The notes beneath the pieces are model-generated. The model was not told where the DNA came from. It searched no databases and saw nothing but the letters and a program-made list of their open reading frames with translations. Shown here one piece after another: positions 4,570-58,223 of a DNA stretch of 64,000 bases. Positions within the stretch are counted from its first letter, which is position 1. Every line of letters begins with the position of its first letter. Location of the stretch: contig NZ_CP007128.1 of the NCBI RefSeq assembly GCF_000522985.1, positions 2,340,220-2,404,219 on the forward strand, in the 5' to 3' direction. The translations under genes and the position numbers were made by a program. The DNA comes from Gemmatirosa kalamazoonensis. GTDB lineage: Bacteria; Gemmatimonadota; Gemmatimonadetes; Gemmatimonadales; Gemmatimonadaceae.

Positions 4570-5196
4570 ATGCGCCGTTCGCTGCTCGTCCTCGCCGTGA
4601 CCCTCGCGCCGTCCGTCGCCGCCGCGCAGGCGTTCGGCTTCGAGGACGACTACGGTCCCAACGGGCTCTATGCCCCGTCGCTGACGGTCACCTCGGGGGC
4701 GCAGACGCTCACCGTCACGCCGGGGGCGCCTAACGGATTGGTGAACGTCGCCTTCCCGGGCATGGCGCTTCTTGGCACGCAGGCGGTCACCGGTCTCGTC
4801 CAGGGGGTCAGGCCGGGGCTGGCCTTCGTGCCGTTGGTCTTCACGTTCCTCCGGCCCGTCGGCAGCATCACGTTCGCGTTCGGCGACGCCGGGGGCGATG
4901 ACGATACGCCGGCGCGGATCGCCGCGTTCGACCCGTCCGACGCGTCGCTCGGCGTCTGGGACACGCCGTATCCCAGGAGCTTCTGGCAGGGCAAGACGCT
5001 GTCGCTCACGTTCGCCGGCGCGGGCGCGAAGTACTTCGTCCTCTCCAGCCCGTCCCTCAACCCGAACAGCATCTACTGGGAGGTGCTCGACTCGGCGCCG
5101 GCCGTGACGACCCCCGAGCCTCCGCCGGCGGCGCTCGCCGCGGTCGGCCTGGTGGGCCTCGTCGCCGTGCGCCGAGCGCGGCGGGAGAGCCGCTAG
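4570..5196 (+). CDS. PEP-CTERM sorting-signal protein
   Basis: A secreted protein of 208 residues. There is an N-terminal signal peptide ending near AAAQAFGFEDDYG. The beta-rich body is of unknown function (residues about 22-175). The C-terminal tail has TPEPPPAALAAVGLVGLV followed by basic AVRRARRESR. The Pro-Glu-Pro motif, single hydrophobic helix and Arg-rich end are the PEP-CTERM signal, recognised and cleaved by an exosortase and linked to exopolysaccharide producers. No exosortase lies in this window, so it must be encoded elsewhere if the protein is processed. No family was recognised for the body. Confidence 0.75.
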   Translation: MRRSLLVLAVTLAPSVAAAQAFGFEDDYGPNGLYAPSLTVTSGAQTLTVTPGAPNGLVNVAFPGMALLGTQAVTGLVQGVRPGLAFVPLVFTFLRPVGSITFAFGDAGGDDDTPARIAAFDPSDASLGVWDTPYPRSFWQGKTLSLTFAGAGAKYFVLSSPSLNPNSIYWEVLDSAPAVTTPEPPPAALAAVGLVGLVAVRRARRESR

Positions 5197-16280: not shown

Positions 16281-16545
16281 GCCGAGCCGCGCAGGACGCC
16301 GAGCCCGTTCGGGGCTGTGTGAACGAACCGCAGAGGACGCAGAGGGGCGCACAGGACTGCCTCTTCCTGCCCTTCTTGAATTCAACCACAGAAGACACGG
16401 AGGACACAGAGGAAACCAACAATTGAAGTGGTTCTCCTCCGTGTCCTCCGTGTCCTCTGTGGTTCAAATGAAAGGCTCTGCGCCCCTCTGCGTCCTCTGC
16501 GGTTCAATTCGAAGAGGCTGTCCTTCGCGTCCTCCGCGGCTCCGC
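16281..16545. repeat. Triple-nested palindrome (CAGAGGAC word family)
   Basis: It fills most of the 353-nt gap between two minus-strand genes and has three concentric stems. Layer 1: 16281-16304 with 16522-16545 (about 19 of 24 matched). Layer 2: GAACCGCAGAGGACGC at 16325-16352 with CTCTGCGTCCTCTGCGGTTC ending at 16505. Layer 3: CCACAGAAGACACGGAGGAC at 16385-16420 with the complementary arm 16430-16467. Each layer uses a different 8-10-nt word. The spacers AGGACTGCCTC and GGAAACCAAC recur in the element at 61.8-62.0 kb, which lies in the opposite orientation. The remaining ends (16242-16280, 16546-16594) show nothing recognisable. Confidence 0.9.
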
Positions 16546-25428: not shown

Positions 25429-25490
25429 CCGCTGCGTCGCTGCGTGACGGCGTCTTGTTGAGGGGACGCAGTCACGCAGCGACGCAGCGG
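25429..25490. terminator. Near-perfect 26-bp hairpin between convergent genes
   Basis: The arms 25429-25454 (CCGCTGCGTCGCTGCGTGAC...) and 25465-25490 are complementary with one mismatch across a 10-nt loop. The arm contains the word GCTGCGT twice. It is followed by TTTT on the plus strand, so it can act as a terminator for the monooxygenase operon. It is also one of the tandem-word palindromes of this window. Confidence 0.85.
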
Positions 25491-33127: not shown

Positions 33128-33211
33128 CGGAGAGGGCAGGAGGGCAGGAGGGCAGGAGGGCACGAGAGGTGATGGCTCCTGCCCTCCTGCCCTCCTGCCC
33201 TCCTGCCCTCT
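33128..33211. repeat. Palindrome of GGGCAGGA words between convergent genes
   Basis: Four GGCAGGAG-type units (33132-33167) and four complementary CTCCTGCC units (33176-33211) with a short loop. It begins at the base after the thioesterase stop and ends at the base before the PhzF stop, so it is the whole intergenic interval. It would form a hairpin of over 30 bp in transcripts from either side. The same word occurs at 44.0 and 45.8 kb. Confidence 0.95.
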
Positions 33212-40527: not shown

Positions 40528-40530
40528 GCG

Positions 40531-40590
40531 ACGCGTGACGCGTGACGCGCATCACCAACGGGGCGCGCGTCACGTGTCACGCGTCACGCG
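40531..40590. repeat. Palindrome of GACGCGT words between convergent genes
   Basis: ACGCGTGACGCGTGACGCGC (40531-40550) pairs with GCGCGTCACGTGTCACGCG onward (40564-40590) around a 13-nt loop. The interval runs from the signal peptidase stop to the stop codon of the convergent gene and has no other content. Confidence 0.9.
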
Positions 40591-43998: not shown

Positions 43999-44097
43999 CA
44001 GGGCAGGAGGGCAGGAGGGCAGGAGGGCAAGAGAGGGGCGCTGAGACTTCGGTCACAGCGCCCCTCTTGCTCTCGTGCCCTCTCGCCCTCCTGCCCT
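43999..44097. repeat. Palindrome of GGGCAGGA words
   Basis: The left arm has three GGGCAGGA units then GGGCAAGAGAGGGGCGCTG (to 44043). The right arm starts CAGCGCCCCTCTTGC (44056) and continues with CCCTC-rich units to 44097. The inner 15 bp pair perfectly, while the outer part is imperfect. It lies between two plus-strand genes. Confidence 0.9.
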
Positions 44098-44860: not shown

Positions 44861-45268
44861 ATGGCCGACGACCGACGAGATGGAGCGCCCGGCATCGGGA
44901 CGCTGCTCAGGGATCTGGCCGAAGGGAGCGGGGAGCTCGTGCGCCACGAGGTGCGGCTCGCGCGCATCGAGGCGATGGAGCTCGTGCGCGGGATCGGCGT
45001 CGGCACGGCGTCGGTCGCGGCGGGCGGCGTGCTCGGGCTCCTCGGCGCGCTGTCGCTGCTCGCCGGGGTGATCCTGCTCATCGGCGACCAGTGGCTGCAC
45101 GACGACTACTGGCTCGCCGCGCTGATCGTGACGCTGATCGCCGGCGGCGTCGCCGCATTCTACGCCTGGCGCGGGAAGCAACGCCTGTCGCCGGCGCAAC
45201 TGGTTCCGAATCAGACGGTGGAGACGCTCAAGGAGGACGTGGAATGGCTGAGACGACAGCGGACGTGA
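44861..45268 (+). CDS. YqjE-like / phage-holin superfamily III-like membrane protein
   Basis: A protein of 135 residues with a charged N-terminus, the family helix LLRDLAEGSGELVRHEVRLA and two transmembrane helices (VAAGGVLGLLGALSLLAGVI and WLAALIVTLIAGGVAAFYAW). The family is annotated as Hol-X superfamily III, but chromosomal members next to YqjD-like genes are not lysis proteins. GGAGGGGG precedes the ATG. It overlaps the next gene by 25 nt. Confidence 0.82.
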   Translation: MADDRRDGAPGIGTLLRDLAEGSGELVRHEVRLARIEAMELVRGIGVGTASVAAGGVLGLLGALSLLAGVILLIGDQWLHDDYWLAALIVTLIAGGVAAFYAWRGKQRLSPAQLVPNQTVETLKEDVEWLRRQRT

Positions 45269-45753
45269 GGCGCGACATCGAGCTGACGCGGGAGCGGATG
45301 TCGTCGACGCTCGCGCAGCTCGAGCGCAAGCTGAACCTCGGAGAGATGGTGAAGGAACACCCGTGGCCGGCGTTAGGCCTCGCGTTCGGCGCCGGGCTGC
45401 TGCTCAGCGGCTCGAAGGCCGACGTGAAGGCCGCGGCGGCGACGGCGGTCGCGACGAAGGGCGCGAGCTCGAAGCTCGGCACGGCGCTCGACGACATCGT
45501 GTCGAACCTGATGCACGCCGTCGGCGACGCGCTGCAGGGACACGTGGACGGCATGCTCGGCGAGGTGAAGCAGGCGCTCGGCGTGCCGAAGGACGGCAAC
45601 GGCCAGCGCTCCGGCTTCGCGAGCTACGGCACGTCGCGCGAGTCCGTGCCGGCGCTCGCCGACACCGACACGCACCCGTCGAGCGTCTCCTCCGTCGGCG
45701 CCGACGGCTCGAGCTGGGCGCCGCAGGGCGCATCGGTCGGGCGCGCGGACTGA
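45244..45753 (+). CDS. DUF3618-like protein
   Basis: A protein of 169 residues beginning with the DUF3618 motif ETTADVRRDIELTRERMSST and LAQLERKLNLGEMVKEHPW. A short hydrophobic segment follows (PALGLAFGAGLLLSG), then amphipathic helices and a Ser-rich tail. It is the third gene of the YqjD-like operon; function unknown. A GTTAGGC supplies its only TTA codon (45372-45378). Confidence 0.8.
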   Translation: MAETTADVRRDIELTRERMSSTLAQLERKLNLGEMVKEHPWPALGLAFGAGLLLSGSKADVKAAAATAVATKGASSKLGTALDDIVSNLMHAVGDALQGHVDGMLGEVKQALGVPKDGNGQRSGFASYGTSRESVPALADTDTHPSSVSSVGADGSSWAPQGASVGRAD

Positions 45754-45761
45754 AGGACGCC

Positions 45762-45845
45762 AGGGCACGAGGGCAGGAGCGCAGGAGGGCAGGAGAGCCT
45801 AACGGTTCTCCTGCCCTCCTGCGCTCCTGCCCTCCTGCCCTCGTC
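45762..45845. repeat. Palindrome of GGGCAGGA words with mirrored variant unit
   Basis: The left arm (45762-45796) and right arm (45807-45845) lie around a loop holding GCCTAAC. Both arms carry the same off-consensus unit, GCGCAGGA on the left and TCCTGCGC on the right, in mirrored position. 28 nt pair perfectly. It fills the gap between the DUF3618 gene and the convergent exporter gene. Confidence 0.95.
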
Positions 45846-45847
45846 CG

Positions 45848-47224
45848 TCAGGCTGCCTGTCGAATCCAGCGCACGAGCTCCGGCACCGTCGGGCGCTTGC
45901 CGTACATCAGCAGGCCGACGCGGTAGATGCGCGCGGCGAGCCAGATGACGATCGCCACGGTCACGAGCGTGACCGCGATCGAGCCGACGACCTCCCACCA
46001 CGGCACCTGGATCATCGTCATGCGCAGCGGCATGATGACCGGCGCCGTGAACGGGATCCACGAGAACACCTGCGCCATGCCGCTCGCCGGGTTCAGCGCG
46101 ATCGGCTGCACCATGATGACCGACGGCACGAGCAGGAACGCGATCGGCGTCGCTGCCTGCTGCGCGTCCTGCTCCGAGCTCACCGTCGCGCCGGCCGCCG
46201 CGTAGAGCGACGAGAAGAGCAGGAAGCCTAACAGGAAGAACGCGGCGATCGCGGCGATCGTCCCGACCGAGAAGTCGGGGAGCGGCAGGCCGGCGGTCTG
46301 CTGCGCGGCCGCGGCGCCCGGGCTCGCGCTCGCGGCGGCCGCCGTCGCGGCGCCCCGGCCCATCTTCGCGATCCACGGCTGCAGGAAGCCGAACAGGTAG
46401 ATCGTGCCGCCGATCCACAGCGCCTGCTGCGTGAACCCGACGCCCGCGATGCCGAGCACCTTGCCCGCCATCAGCGTCTCCGGCTTCACGCTCGACACCA
46501 CGACCTCGGCGACGCGCGTCGTCTTCTCCTCCATCACGCCGCGCAGCACCATCTGGCCGTAGATCGCGAGCGACATGTACAGGACGAACGCGATCACGAG
46601 CCCCACGATGTAGCTCTTCATGCCGCCGCCGCCGCCCTTGCCCTTGTCGTCGATGCGCTCGGCGGGGAGCTGCAGCTTCACCGACGTCAGCGAGTCGACG
46701 CGGCTGCCCTGCAGGCCGGCGGTCTCGAGCCGCTGGGCGACGACGCTCTGCCTAACGGCGGTGCGCAGCCGCTCGAGGTCGGGCACGCTCGACGCGTTGC
46801 GCCCGGCGTAGCGCGCGGAGTCGCCGCGCACCGTCGCCGCGTCGAGCACGAGATAGCCGGGGATGCGCTTCTGCATCACCTCGCGCGTGGCGCGCGACTC
46901 CGCCTGCGCGATCTCGGCGGGCGCCGTCGCGCGCACTTCGGGAGCGCCGCCGTTCGCCGCGCCGCCGCTCGACGCGCGGGCCGAGTCGCCGGCGAGCACG
47001 CGCGCGACGCGCTGGCCGAGGTCCGTGCCCGTGGCGTCGATGATCGCGATGCGGCTCACGTTGTTCGACGCGGTCGTCTTCACCGCGAGCCACACCGGCA
47101 GCACACCCGTCGCCGTGAGCAGCAGCGGGATGAGCAGCGTCGAGATGATGAACCACTTGGTGCGCACGCGCTCCACGTACTCGCGCTTGATCACCGCCCA
47201 GAGCTTCGCGTAGCTGTCAACCAT
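45848..47224 (-). CDS. NatB-like ABC-2 exporter permease
   Basis: A membrane protein of 458 residues. Helix 1 is FIISTLLIPLLLTATGVLPV, followed by a large extracytoplasmic domain (residues about 50-195). Five more helices follow, including IVGLVIAFVLYMSLAIYGQMV, with the conserved cytoplasmic RGVMEEKTTRVAEVVVSSVKPETLMAGK. That pattern is typical of NatB/CcmB-like ABC-2 permeases for sodium or drug export. It overlaps the ATPase gene by 8 nt. Confidence 0.88.
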   Translation of the reverse strand: MVDSYAKLWAVIKREYVERVRTKWFIISTLLIPLLLTATGVLPVWLAVKTTASNNVSRIAIIDATGTDLGQRVARVLAGDSARASSGGAANGGAPEVRATAPAEIAQAESRATREVMQKRIPGYLVLDAATVRGDSARYAGRNASSVPDLERLRTAVRQSVVAQRLETAGLQGSRVDSLTSVKLQLPAERIDDKGKGGGGGMKSYIVGLVIAFVLYMSLAIYGQMVLRGVMEEKTTRVAEVVVSSVKPETLMAGKVLGIAGVGFTQQALWIGGTIYLFGFLQPWIAKMGRGAATAAAASASPGAAAAQQTAGLPLPDFSVGTIAAIAAFFLLGFLLFSSLYAAAGATVSSEQDAQQAATPIAFLLVPSVIMVQPIALNPASGMAQVFSWIPFTAPVIMPLRMTMIQVPWWEVVGSIAVTLVTVAIVIWLAARIYRVGLLMYGKRPTVPELVRWIRQAA

Positions 47225-56731: not shown

Positions 56732-56759
56732 CCGAGTCGGGCCACGAGGACCGCAACCC

Positions 56760-56826
56760 GAGCGTGGAGCGTGGAGCGTGGAGCGAAGAGTGAACAGAGT
56801 CGCTCCACGCTCCACGCTCCACGCTC
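56760..56826. repeat. Perfect 27-bp palindrome of GAGCGTG words inside the SUF operon
   Basis: GAGCGTGGAGCGTGGAGCGT and continuing (56760-56786) is an exact reverse complement of 56800-56826; the loop is 13 nt. The unit is GAGCGTG repeated three times. It lies between sufD and sufU2, which are on the same strand. It could therefore lower or separate expression of the distal genes, or serve as an RNase III site. No T run follows. Confidence 0.95.
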
Positions 56827-56831
56827 GACGC

Positions 56832-58219
56832 TCAGCCTGCGTAACGCTGCAGCGTGAGAGCTTCGAGGGCGTCGCGCACGGCGGGAAGCTCGATGGTTTC
56901 GAGCACGTCGGCGGCGAACGCGTAGGTGAGCAGCTTGCGCGCGGTCTCGGCCGAGATGCCGCGGCTCTTCATGTAGAACAGCGCGGTCTCGTCGAGCCGC
57001 CCCACCGTCGCGCCGTGCGTGCACTTCACGTCGTCGGCGAAGATCTCGAGCTGCGGCTTGGTGTCGATGCGCGCCTGGTCGGAGAGGAGCAGCGTGTTGT
57101 TCGTCTGCTTGCCGTCCGTCTTCTGCGCGATCGGATGCACGTACACCTTGCCGTTGAACACGCCGTGCGCGCGGTCGTCGAGGATCCCCTTGTAGACCTC
57201 GCGGCTGTACGTGTTCGGCCGCGCGTGCTCGATGCGCGTCTGGTTGTCGCAGTGCTGCTCGCCGTCGAGCATGTACAGCCCGTTCAGCGTCGCGCCGCAT
57301 CCCTCGCCGTCGAGCGCGGTGAGGATGTTCGCGCGCGAGAGCTTCGCGCCCGCGGCGAACGAGAACTGCACGAGGTGGCTGTCGCGCCCCTGCCGCACCT
57401 CGACGTGCCCGACGTGGAACGCGCGGCCGCTCTCGCGCTGCGCGCGCACGTGCGTCACGGTCGCGCCGTCGGCGAGCTCGATCTCGGTCACCGCGTTCGT
57501 GAAGTACGTCGCGTCGCCGAGGCCGACGAAGCTCTCGAGCACCGTGAGCTTGGAGTGGCGCTCGGCGACGATGAGCGTGCGCGGGTGCGTCGTGCCGCGG
57601 GCGGCGTTCGCGTCGCACGCCCACACGACGTGCACCGGCAGCTCGGCCTCCATCTCCTTGCCGACGACGATCACGACGCCGTCGCGGAACAGCGCCGTGT
57701 TCAGCGCGGCGAACGGCTGGTCGGCGACGCCGGCGATGCGGCCGAGATGACGCTCGAGCAGCTCCGGCCGCTCGGCCAGCGCCCGCGCGAGCGGCAGCAC
57801 GCGCACGCCCTCGGGCAGCGTGCCGAGCGACGAGCGCTCGGCGTCGAAGCGGCCGTTCACGAACACCAGCGTCGGGAAGTCGCCGAACACGAACGGCGCC
57901 AGCTCCTCGGGCGTCACCGTGACCGACGCGTCGAGCAGCGTGGGGAACGCCGCCTCGGCGATCGGTGCGGTGGACGTGTAGTGCCAGTCCTCGTGCTTCG
58001 GCGTCGGGAAGCCGCTCGCGGCGAAGCGCTGGGCGGCGTCGCGGCGACGCGCGACGAGCCACGCCGGCTCCGAGACCTCCGACGCGCCCAAGGCGTCGCC
58101 GATCTCGTCGAGCAGCGCCCGCGGCGGGGCGAGGAACTGGCCCGGGGCGACCGTCGCGTCGCGCTGCGCCTCGGCAGCGACCGCCTGGGCGACGCTCTGC
58201 GCGTCGGGATGGATCGCGG

Positions 58220-58223
<4 letters not shown>
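56832..58223 (-). CDS. sufD: Fe-S assembly protein SufD
   Basis: A protein of 463 residues with a right-handed beta-helix. Features are GFPTPKHEDWHYTSTAPI near the N-terminus, ALNTALFRDGVVIVV, a long beta-helix with GATLNGLYMLDGEQHCDNQT, KTDGKQTNNTLLLSD and the C-terminal HGATVGRLDETALFYMKSRG. SufD forms the SufBC2D scaffold and supports iron acquisition. GTG start overlapping the sufC stop (GTGA). The stop codon lies only 5 nt from the right arm of the perfect palindrome. Confidence 0.95.

Follow-up and report, generated by a model that had tools for sequence, protein, structure and literature searches.

Inverted tandem-unit hairpins just past stop codons in Gemmatirosa kalamazoonensis: candidate bidirectional 3' ends whose arms probably spread together

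A palindrome near 45.8 kb of a 64-kb stretch of the Gemmatirosa kalamazoonensis KBS708 chromosome (contig C2, NZ_CP007128.1, positions 2340220-2404219; the window hereafter) carries the same off-consensus repeat unit in both of its arms, raising the question of whether one arm was copied from the other at this locus or whether the pair was inherited as such. Tandem GGGCAGGA arrays form an inverted pair at 45762-45841 of the window and fold into a hairpin with exactly 28 contiguous pairs, 45769-45796 pairing perfectly with 45807-45834. The left arm (45762-45796) contains four units at 45763-45794, in the order GGGCACGA, GGGCAGGA, GCGCAGGA, GGGCAGGA, followed by GA. The cap (45797-45806) reads GCC-TAAC-GGT, and the right arm (45807-45841) consists of TC, four units at 45809-45840 (TCCTGCCC, TCCTGCGC, TCCTGCCC, TCCTGCCC) and a final T. 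The variant unit GCGCAGGA at 45779-45786 is paired with TCCTGCGC, which is the same variant on the opposite strand, at 45817-45824. A sequence-only reading of the window had placed the variant at matching positions of the two arms within 28 paired bases, and this was verified to the base. Absent from that reading was the outer left unit, GGGCACGA (45763-45770), which is unmirrored in the 28-bp register: its C at 45768 faces a C at 45835 and is unpaired, and the unit matches the right end of the hairpin (GCCCTCGT) only when one arm is shifted by one unit.

RNA folding of positions 45754-45850 gave -95.7 kcal/mol (z = -14.3), and 313 hairpins of score at least 14 were found in the 1.66 Mb around the window compared with 14 in Markov-4 sequence, indicating that the focal feature is not due to chance. 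It is one among several hundred tandem-unit hairpins that lie just past stop codons in this genome. The focal hairpin is placed between convergent genes. A plus-strand gene (45265-45753) with a weak DUF3618 match, under the Pfam cut-off, stops 8 nt to the left of the hairpin, and a minus-strand gene for an ABC-2 type permease (PF12698; 45848-47224) converges on it, with its stop codon 6 nt to the right. Further GGGCAGGA hairpins occur in the window at 33131-33211, with convergent genes on either side, and at 44000-44097, where a hairpin with a GC-rich inner stem begins 3 nt past the stop codon of a co-directional gene. Hairpins built from other units lie between convergent genes at 25429-25490 (8-nt units of the GCTGCGTC type) and 40530-40585 (the 7-nt unit GACGCGT), and between co-directional genes at 16384-16464 (9-nt units of the CACAGAGGA type). 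A hairpin of the 7-nt unit GAGCGTG (56759-56827) lies 4 nt after the stop of a minus-strand SufBD-family gene (56832-58223) and before a NifU-like gene; the sequence-only reading had described it as perfect over 27 bp, and its arms (56759-56786 and 56800-56827) are indeed perfect, at a length of 28 bp. An Rfam scan of the 64-kb window matched no family, and a scan for promoters and U-tract terminators gave no terminator-like site at the tandem-unit hairpins.

The KBS708 genome comprises 7,479,215 bases in four contigs, of which C2 accounts for 5,311,527; replicons of 5,312, 1,106, 1,041 and 21 kb with 72.6% G+C were reported for this soil bacterium (PMC3974934), and the first 1.66 Mb sampled here had 72.8% G+C. 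Our counts refer to this one strain and cover 2.46 Mb, or roughly 46% of the chromosome, together with an additional 30 loci. Genes were called with a codon-usage finder written for this analysis, and array detection tolerated up to 2 mismatches per window. About a dozen unit families were found. They include 7-nt units (GAGCGTG and CGGGACT), 8-nt units (GGGCAGGA and GCTGCGTG), 9-nt units (CACAGAGGA/CGCAGAGGA/CGCGGAGAA, and CAGGATGGA), the 11-nt unit GGACTGAAGRA and a 14-nt class, CGGCGCTGAT. In the 1.66 Mb, all 37 plus-oriented GGGCAGGA arrays had a minus-oriented partner array, and the G-rich arm was 5' in every case; about 80% of hairpins have a purine-rich 5' arm. Tetraloop-like caps among the hairpins include CTTCGG, GCGAAAGC and TAAC.

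Arms of one hairpin are frequently unequal, differing in length by at least one unit at 37 of 71 loci. In two GGGCAGGA hairpins (C2 2276209 and 2949207) the right arm has grown to 222 and 250 bp, with about 3 units in the other arm. Mini-hairpins with GNRA-like loops (CGCGCGAAACGCGCG, CGAAACG or CGAAGCG) are inserted in one or both arms of GGGCAGGA hairpins, at C2 1571868, 2037724, 2248976, 2276152, 3426374 and elsewhere, and give rise to branched structures.

To the sequence-only reading, independent tandem expansion would not produce the same variant twice, and the palindromes were thought to arise by inverted copying, or to be corrected by it. The genome-wide alignment of arms that it had proposed was performed here, with right arms swapped among the loci of one family as the null (2000 permutations for the unit-level test). 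At 50 simple GGGCAGGA loci, variant units were mirrored at 19 positions, confined to one arm at 42 and different in the two arms at 6. Since only 4.5 (sd 1.8) mirrored units were obtained by permutation, and none of the 2000 permutations gave a value as high as 19, the arms of one locus share ancestry. The excess was still present among loci without the GCGC unit GCGCAGGA (7 compared with 2.06, P=0.001). At the level of single bases, mirrored deviations exceeded those under arm swap for GGGCAGGA (42 compared with 26.4, sd 3.9) and for GAGCGTG (26 compared with 14.5); for CGGGACT and GGACTGAAGAA there was no mirrored excess. Thus, the two arms of a locus resemble each other more closely than do arms taken from different loci of one family, and the claim that the same variant did not arise twice by independent events is supported. 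Most variants are nevertheless one-sided or differ: 48 of the 67 variant unit positions at the simple GGGCAGGA loci (72%) and 221 of 289 variant bases across 276 loci and 11 unit families (76%) are unpaired between arms, the outcome that had been named as refuting inverted copying.

The variant seen at the focal hairpin is not peculiar to it. Of the 50 simple GGGCAGGA loci, 14 carry GCGCAGGA in one arm or both, and 7 of these have it in both; it nearly always occupies the second position from the loop, two plain units then following on the outside, and the loci that share this slot differ in their loops and flanks. Since GCGCAGGA recurs in one slot at many loci, a subfamily can pass on the mirrored state to its members. 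A variant confined to a single locus, on the other hand, must have arisen there, and such private variants were counted separately after trimming of array edges. Shared variants were mirrored 66 times compared with 37 under arm swap, an excess amounting to 14% of shared variants, so that about 10 of the 73 private variants would be expected to be mirrored at the same rate. Only 2 of the 73 were (10.2 expected, P=0.0014). Considering GGGCAGGA units alone, 1 of 13 private and 19 of 62 shared variants were mirrored, which is the same direction and not significant (P = 0.16). Mirrored variants are therefore best explained by the spread of subfamilies as whole hairpins, combined with decay and slippage of single arms, and the mirrored unit at the focal hairpin is mainly an inherited subfamily pattern and not a local copying event. 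Because coupling within loci remains when the GCGCAGGA loci are set aside, one has to suppose either finer subfamilies or a share of local copying, and local inverted copying makes at most a minor contribution.

We consider it unlikely that local inverted copying, in which a template switch at the hairpin, or fold-back synthesis there, would carry a variant from one arm to the other or erase it, is the main source of the coupling. Such a mechanism is documented for RNA genes (PMC8794818) and would account here, as there, for identical changes in two arms and for perfect stems; it is in keeping with the excess of mirrored variants within loci, with a few little-shared variants that are mirrored (GGGCGCGA in both arms at one locus, GCGCACGA at 1626400, among others) and with the same CGAAGCG insert in each arm at L016. 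However, template-switch correction predicts that new, private variants become mirrored, and at KBS708 hairpins they almost never are. The unpaired 76% of variant bases, the unequal arms at more than half of the 71 loci and inserts of the CGAAACG/CGCGCGAAACGCGCG kind, for which a count by eye gave about 12 loci with a single affected arm and about 4 with two, likewise argue against it. At the 45.8-kb palindrome itself, copying or correction on the spot is left unsupported, given that most variants are unpaired, that GCGCAGGA is not private, that private variants are rarely mirrored and that tandem gain is often one-sided. A further explanation, that arms mutate independently and selection for RNA pairing then fixes the matching change opposite, appears very unlikely to us. 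Although it would suit the location at 3' ends and the stable RNA folds, and G-U mismatches slightly outnumber A-C mismatches in co-directional stems (118 and 90), this preference is weak and not significant (P=0.06), mirrored variants are outnumbered threefold by unpaired ones, and single mismatches in stems of about 30 pairs would be expected to be nearly neutral. As a clean natural data set on the co-evolution of palindrome arms, this genome lends itself to the comparison of private with shared variants, which separates inherited mirrored arms from local correction and is applicable to REPINs, terminators and other palindromes.

With moderate confidence, we regard the focal hairpin as a candidate bidirectional 3' end belonging to a family that is specific to this genome, has inverted tandem arms and spread as whole hairpins whose arms then changed singly. 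Each family was likely founded by an inverted duplication, since point mutation is not expected to give near-perfect inverted arrays. Whole hairpins would then have spread or been exchanged between loci, with variants such as GCGCAGGA travelling in both arms, and after arrival the arms would change mostly singly, through point mutation and unit slippage. The paired GGGCAGGA pattern was found in 1 of 200 genomes of the phylum, namely this one, and was absent from the other 199; the CACAGAGGA pair occurs 97 times in this genome compared with once in 58 relatives. At least these two families have therefore multiplied in this lineage. The flanks are unrelated at most hairpin loci. A paralogous flank was present at 43 of 323 hairpins, mostly with about 75-85% identity, and a search of these 43 for empty sites by which insertions might be dated revealed none.

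These properties invite comparison with REP sequences and REPINs (PMC3116915; PMC3733652), which likewise consist of hundreds of dispersed extragenic palindromes located downstream of genes or between convergent or unidirectional genes, are often species-specific and have paired inverted arms as their unit of spread, as in the 37 of 37 GGGCAGGA arrays. Unlike REP/REPIN elements, KBS708 hairpins have arms composed of 7-14 nt units in tandem, which vary in copy number and sometimes expand on one side only, many unrelated unit families exist side by side, and there is no RAYT/Y1 transposase: PF01797 (Y1_Tnp) had no match in the genome, with controls positive in 5 of 14 genomes. A RAYT or IS200-type transposase was accordingly rejected as the spreading agent. 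By eye, no common tag (GTAG or CGTC) adjoining the palindrome was evident. We find it doubtful that the hairpins represent miniature mobile elements of the REP/REPIN kind, mobilised by a transposase and devoid of host function, whose placement merely marks harmless insertion sites. Their many copies, the near confinement of the tested families to this genome and a unit of spread comprising both arms, as proposed for REPINs (PMC3116915), are compatible with such elements. The missing transposase is not, and neither are the variable unit copy number, the lack of fixed ends or target duplications by eye, a density per kb that is ten times lower in divergent than in convergent regions, and a distance from the stop codon shorter than would be expected if hairpins only avoided coding DNA. 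The TAACTGA repeats of Beggiatoaceae (PMC4679880) are also dispersed intergenic arrays of 7-nt units, but those are direct repeats, mostly upstream of starts and with one inverted case, whereas the KBS708 arrays are inverted pairs after stops. We file the KBS708 hairpins with repetitive palindromes of gene 3' ends, the new element being arms made of tandem units.

Beyond this genome, few hairpins were found in twenty random stretches of relatives (20 kb or shorter). In a SufD scan, relatives showed at most 66% protein identity and were too distant for intergenic alignment. Sporadic hairpins built from different tandem units turned up in 1.2 Mb surrounding SufD homologues of many phyla, so that other organisms have this architecture as well; the groups concerned include Gemmatimonadota, a planctomycete, a KSB1 MAG and a betaproteobacterial MAG. 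A broader idea is that transposase-independent copying, for example self-primed fold-back synthesis followed by capture at gene ends, founds and spreads genome-specific tandem-unit hairpins, and that bacteria furnish their transcript ends with unit families of their own; we offer it as speculation with little likelihood at present. A full-text literature search for the unit sequences returned only an unrelated paper on vertebrate eye development. MAGs of other phyla contain tandem arrays of different units in inverted pairs, at L254 11255, L201 8890, L188 9072 and 13392, L190 5343, L202 7686 and L212 13334; among them is a CACAGAGG-type hairpin in a Burkholderiales MAG, much like the KBS708 9-nt family.

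Intergenic regions of 60 bp or more in the 2.46 Mb differed in how often they contained a hairpin of score at least 18: 58% did when the flanking genes converged (3.06 hairpins per kb), 23% when the genes were co-directional (1.28 per kb) and 7% when they diverged (0.29 per kb). The median distance of these hairpins to the nearest stop codon is 7 nt, and RNA fold z-scores range from -9 to -14. The position right behind stops from either side, a structure symmetrical in both directions, tetraloop-like caps and very high fold stability suggest that the tandem-unit hairpins are most likely candidate bidirectional terminator-like or mRNA-protecting 3' ends. RNA transcribed from either side would fold into a very stable hairpin and could act as a 3'-end structure that stops transcription or shields the mRNA end from exonucleases. 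Intrinsic terminators share with these hairpins a stable GC-rich stem directly after the stop codon and bidirectionality between convergent genes, but the KBS708 stems of about 30 pairs are made of tandem units and are not followed by a U-tract: T makes up 21-23% of the next 8 nt compared with 15% in the background, and TTTT occurs in 1-3%. Classical intrinsic termination is therefore not supported. Hairpins that mark 3' ends near stop codons with no poly-U are documented, and in E. coli such ends have been interpreted as products of Rho-dependent termination, trimmed as far as a stabilising hairpin that may be a REP element (PMC8355165; PMC13289151). Those published ends were shown by RNA-seq or 3'-end mapping; the KBS708 hairpins, as predicted from sequence, have longer, repetitive stems. 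Co-directional genes flank 157 of the 323 hairpins, and half of these lie within 45 nt of the next start codon, a setting in which a full stop would be odd and shielding of the upstream transcript more plausible. If the 3'-end role is true, a few multiplying families of tandem-unit hairpins, and not classical terminators, form the ends of most convergent gene pairs in this genome, and the spread of repeats is tied to the wiring of gene ends.

A second repeated word is found in the loops of some hairpins. The first eight bases of the focal cap (45797-45804) are the over-represented octamer GCCTAACG, which is also found in the window at 4728, 8624, 16077 and 33122, among other positions, and the loop of the focal hairpin is formed by one copy of the motif YGTTAGGCR. 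This motif has 3,985 copies in the genome compared with 94 for the reversed control. Its form CGTTAGGC (for example at 483, 1233, 45371, 56407 and 63740 of the window) is about 40-fold over-represented and occurs on both strands about every 1.8 kb, mostly within genes and with a strong frame preference. In the family, 4 of 23 other genomes have about 700-3,500 copies, and the rest 45 or fewer. Judged from density and distribution, the motif appears to resemble DNA uptake signal sequences. Uptake sequences that serve in terminators (PMC1852404) are likewise genome-specific repeated words reused in hairpins; there, however, an inverted pair forms the stem, whereas GCCTAACG sits in the loop of some KBS708 hairpins. 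The presence of GCCTAAC in loops and flanks had prompted us to consider integron attC sites. This identity was rejected, the motif being evenly spread and mostly in coding DNA, and pairs with attC spacing are rare (GTTAGGC within 150 nt downstream of GCCTAAC at only about 10 of 723 sites). In another genome of the same order (G002), GTTAGGC alternates in strand over many kb of contigs C80 and C95 with spacings that are often 83-125 bp, and this array looks like a real integron attC array.
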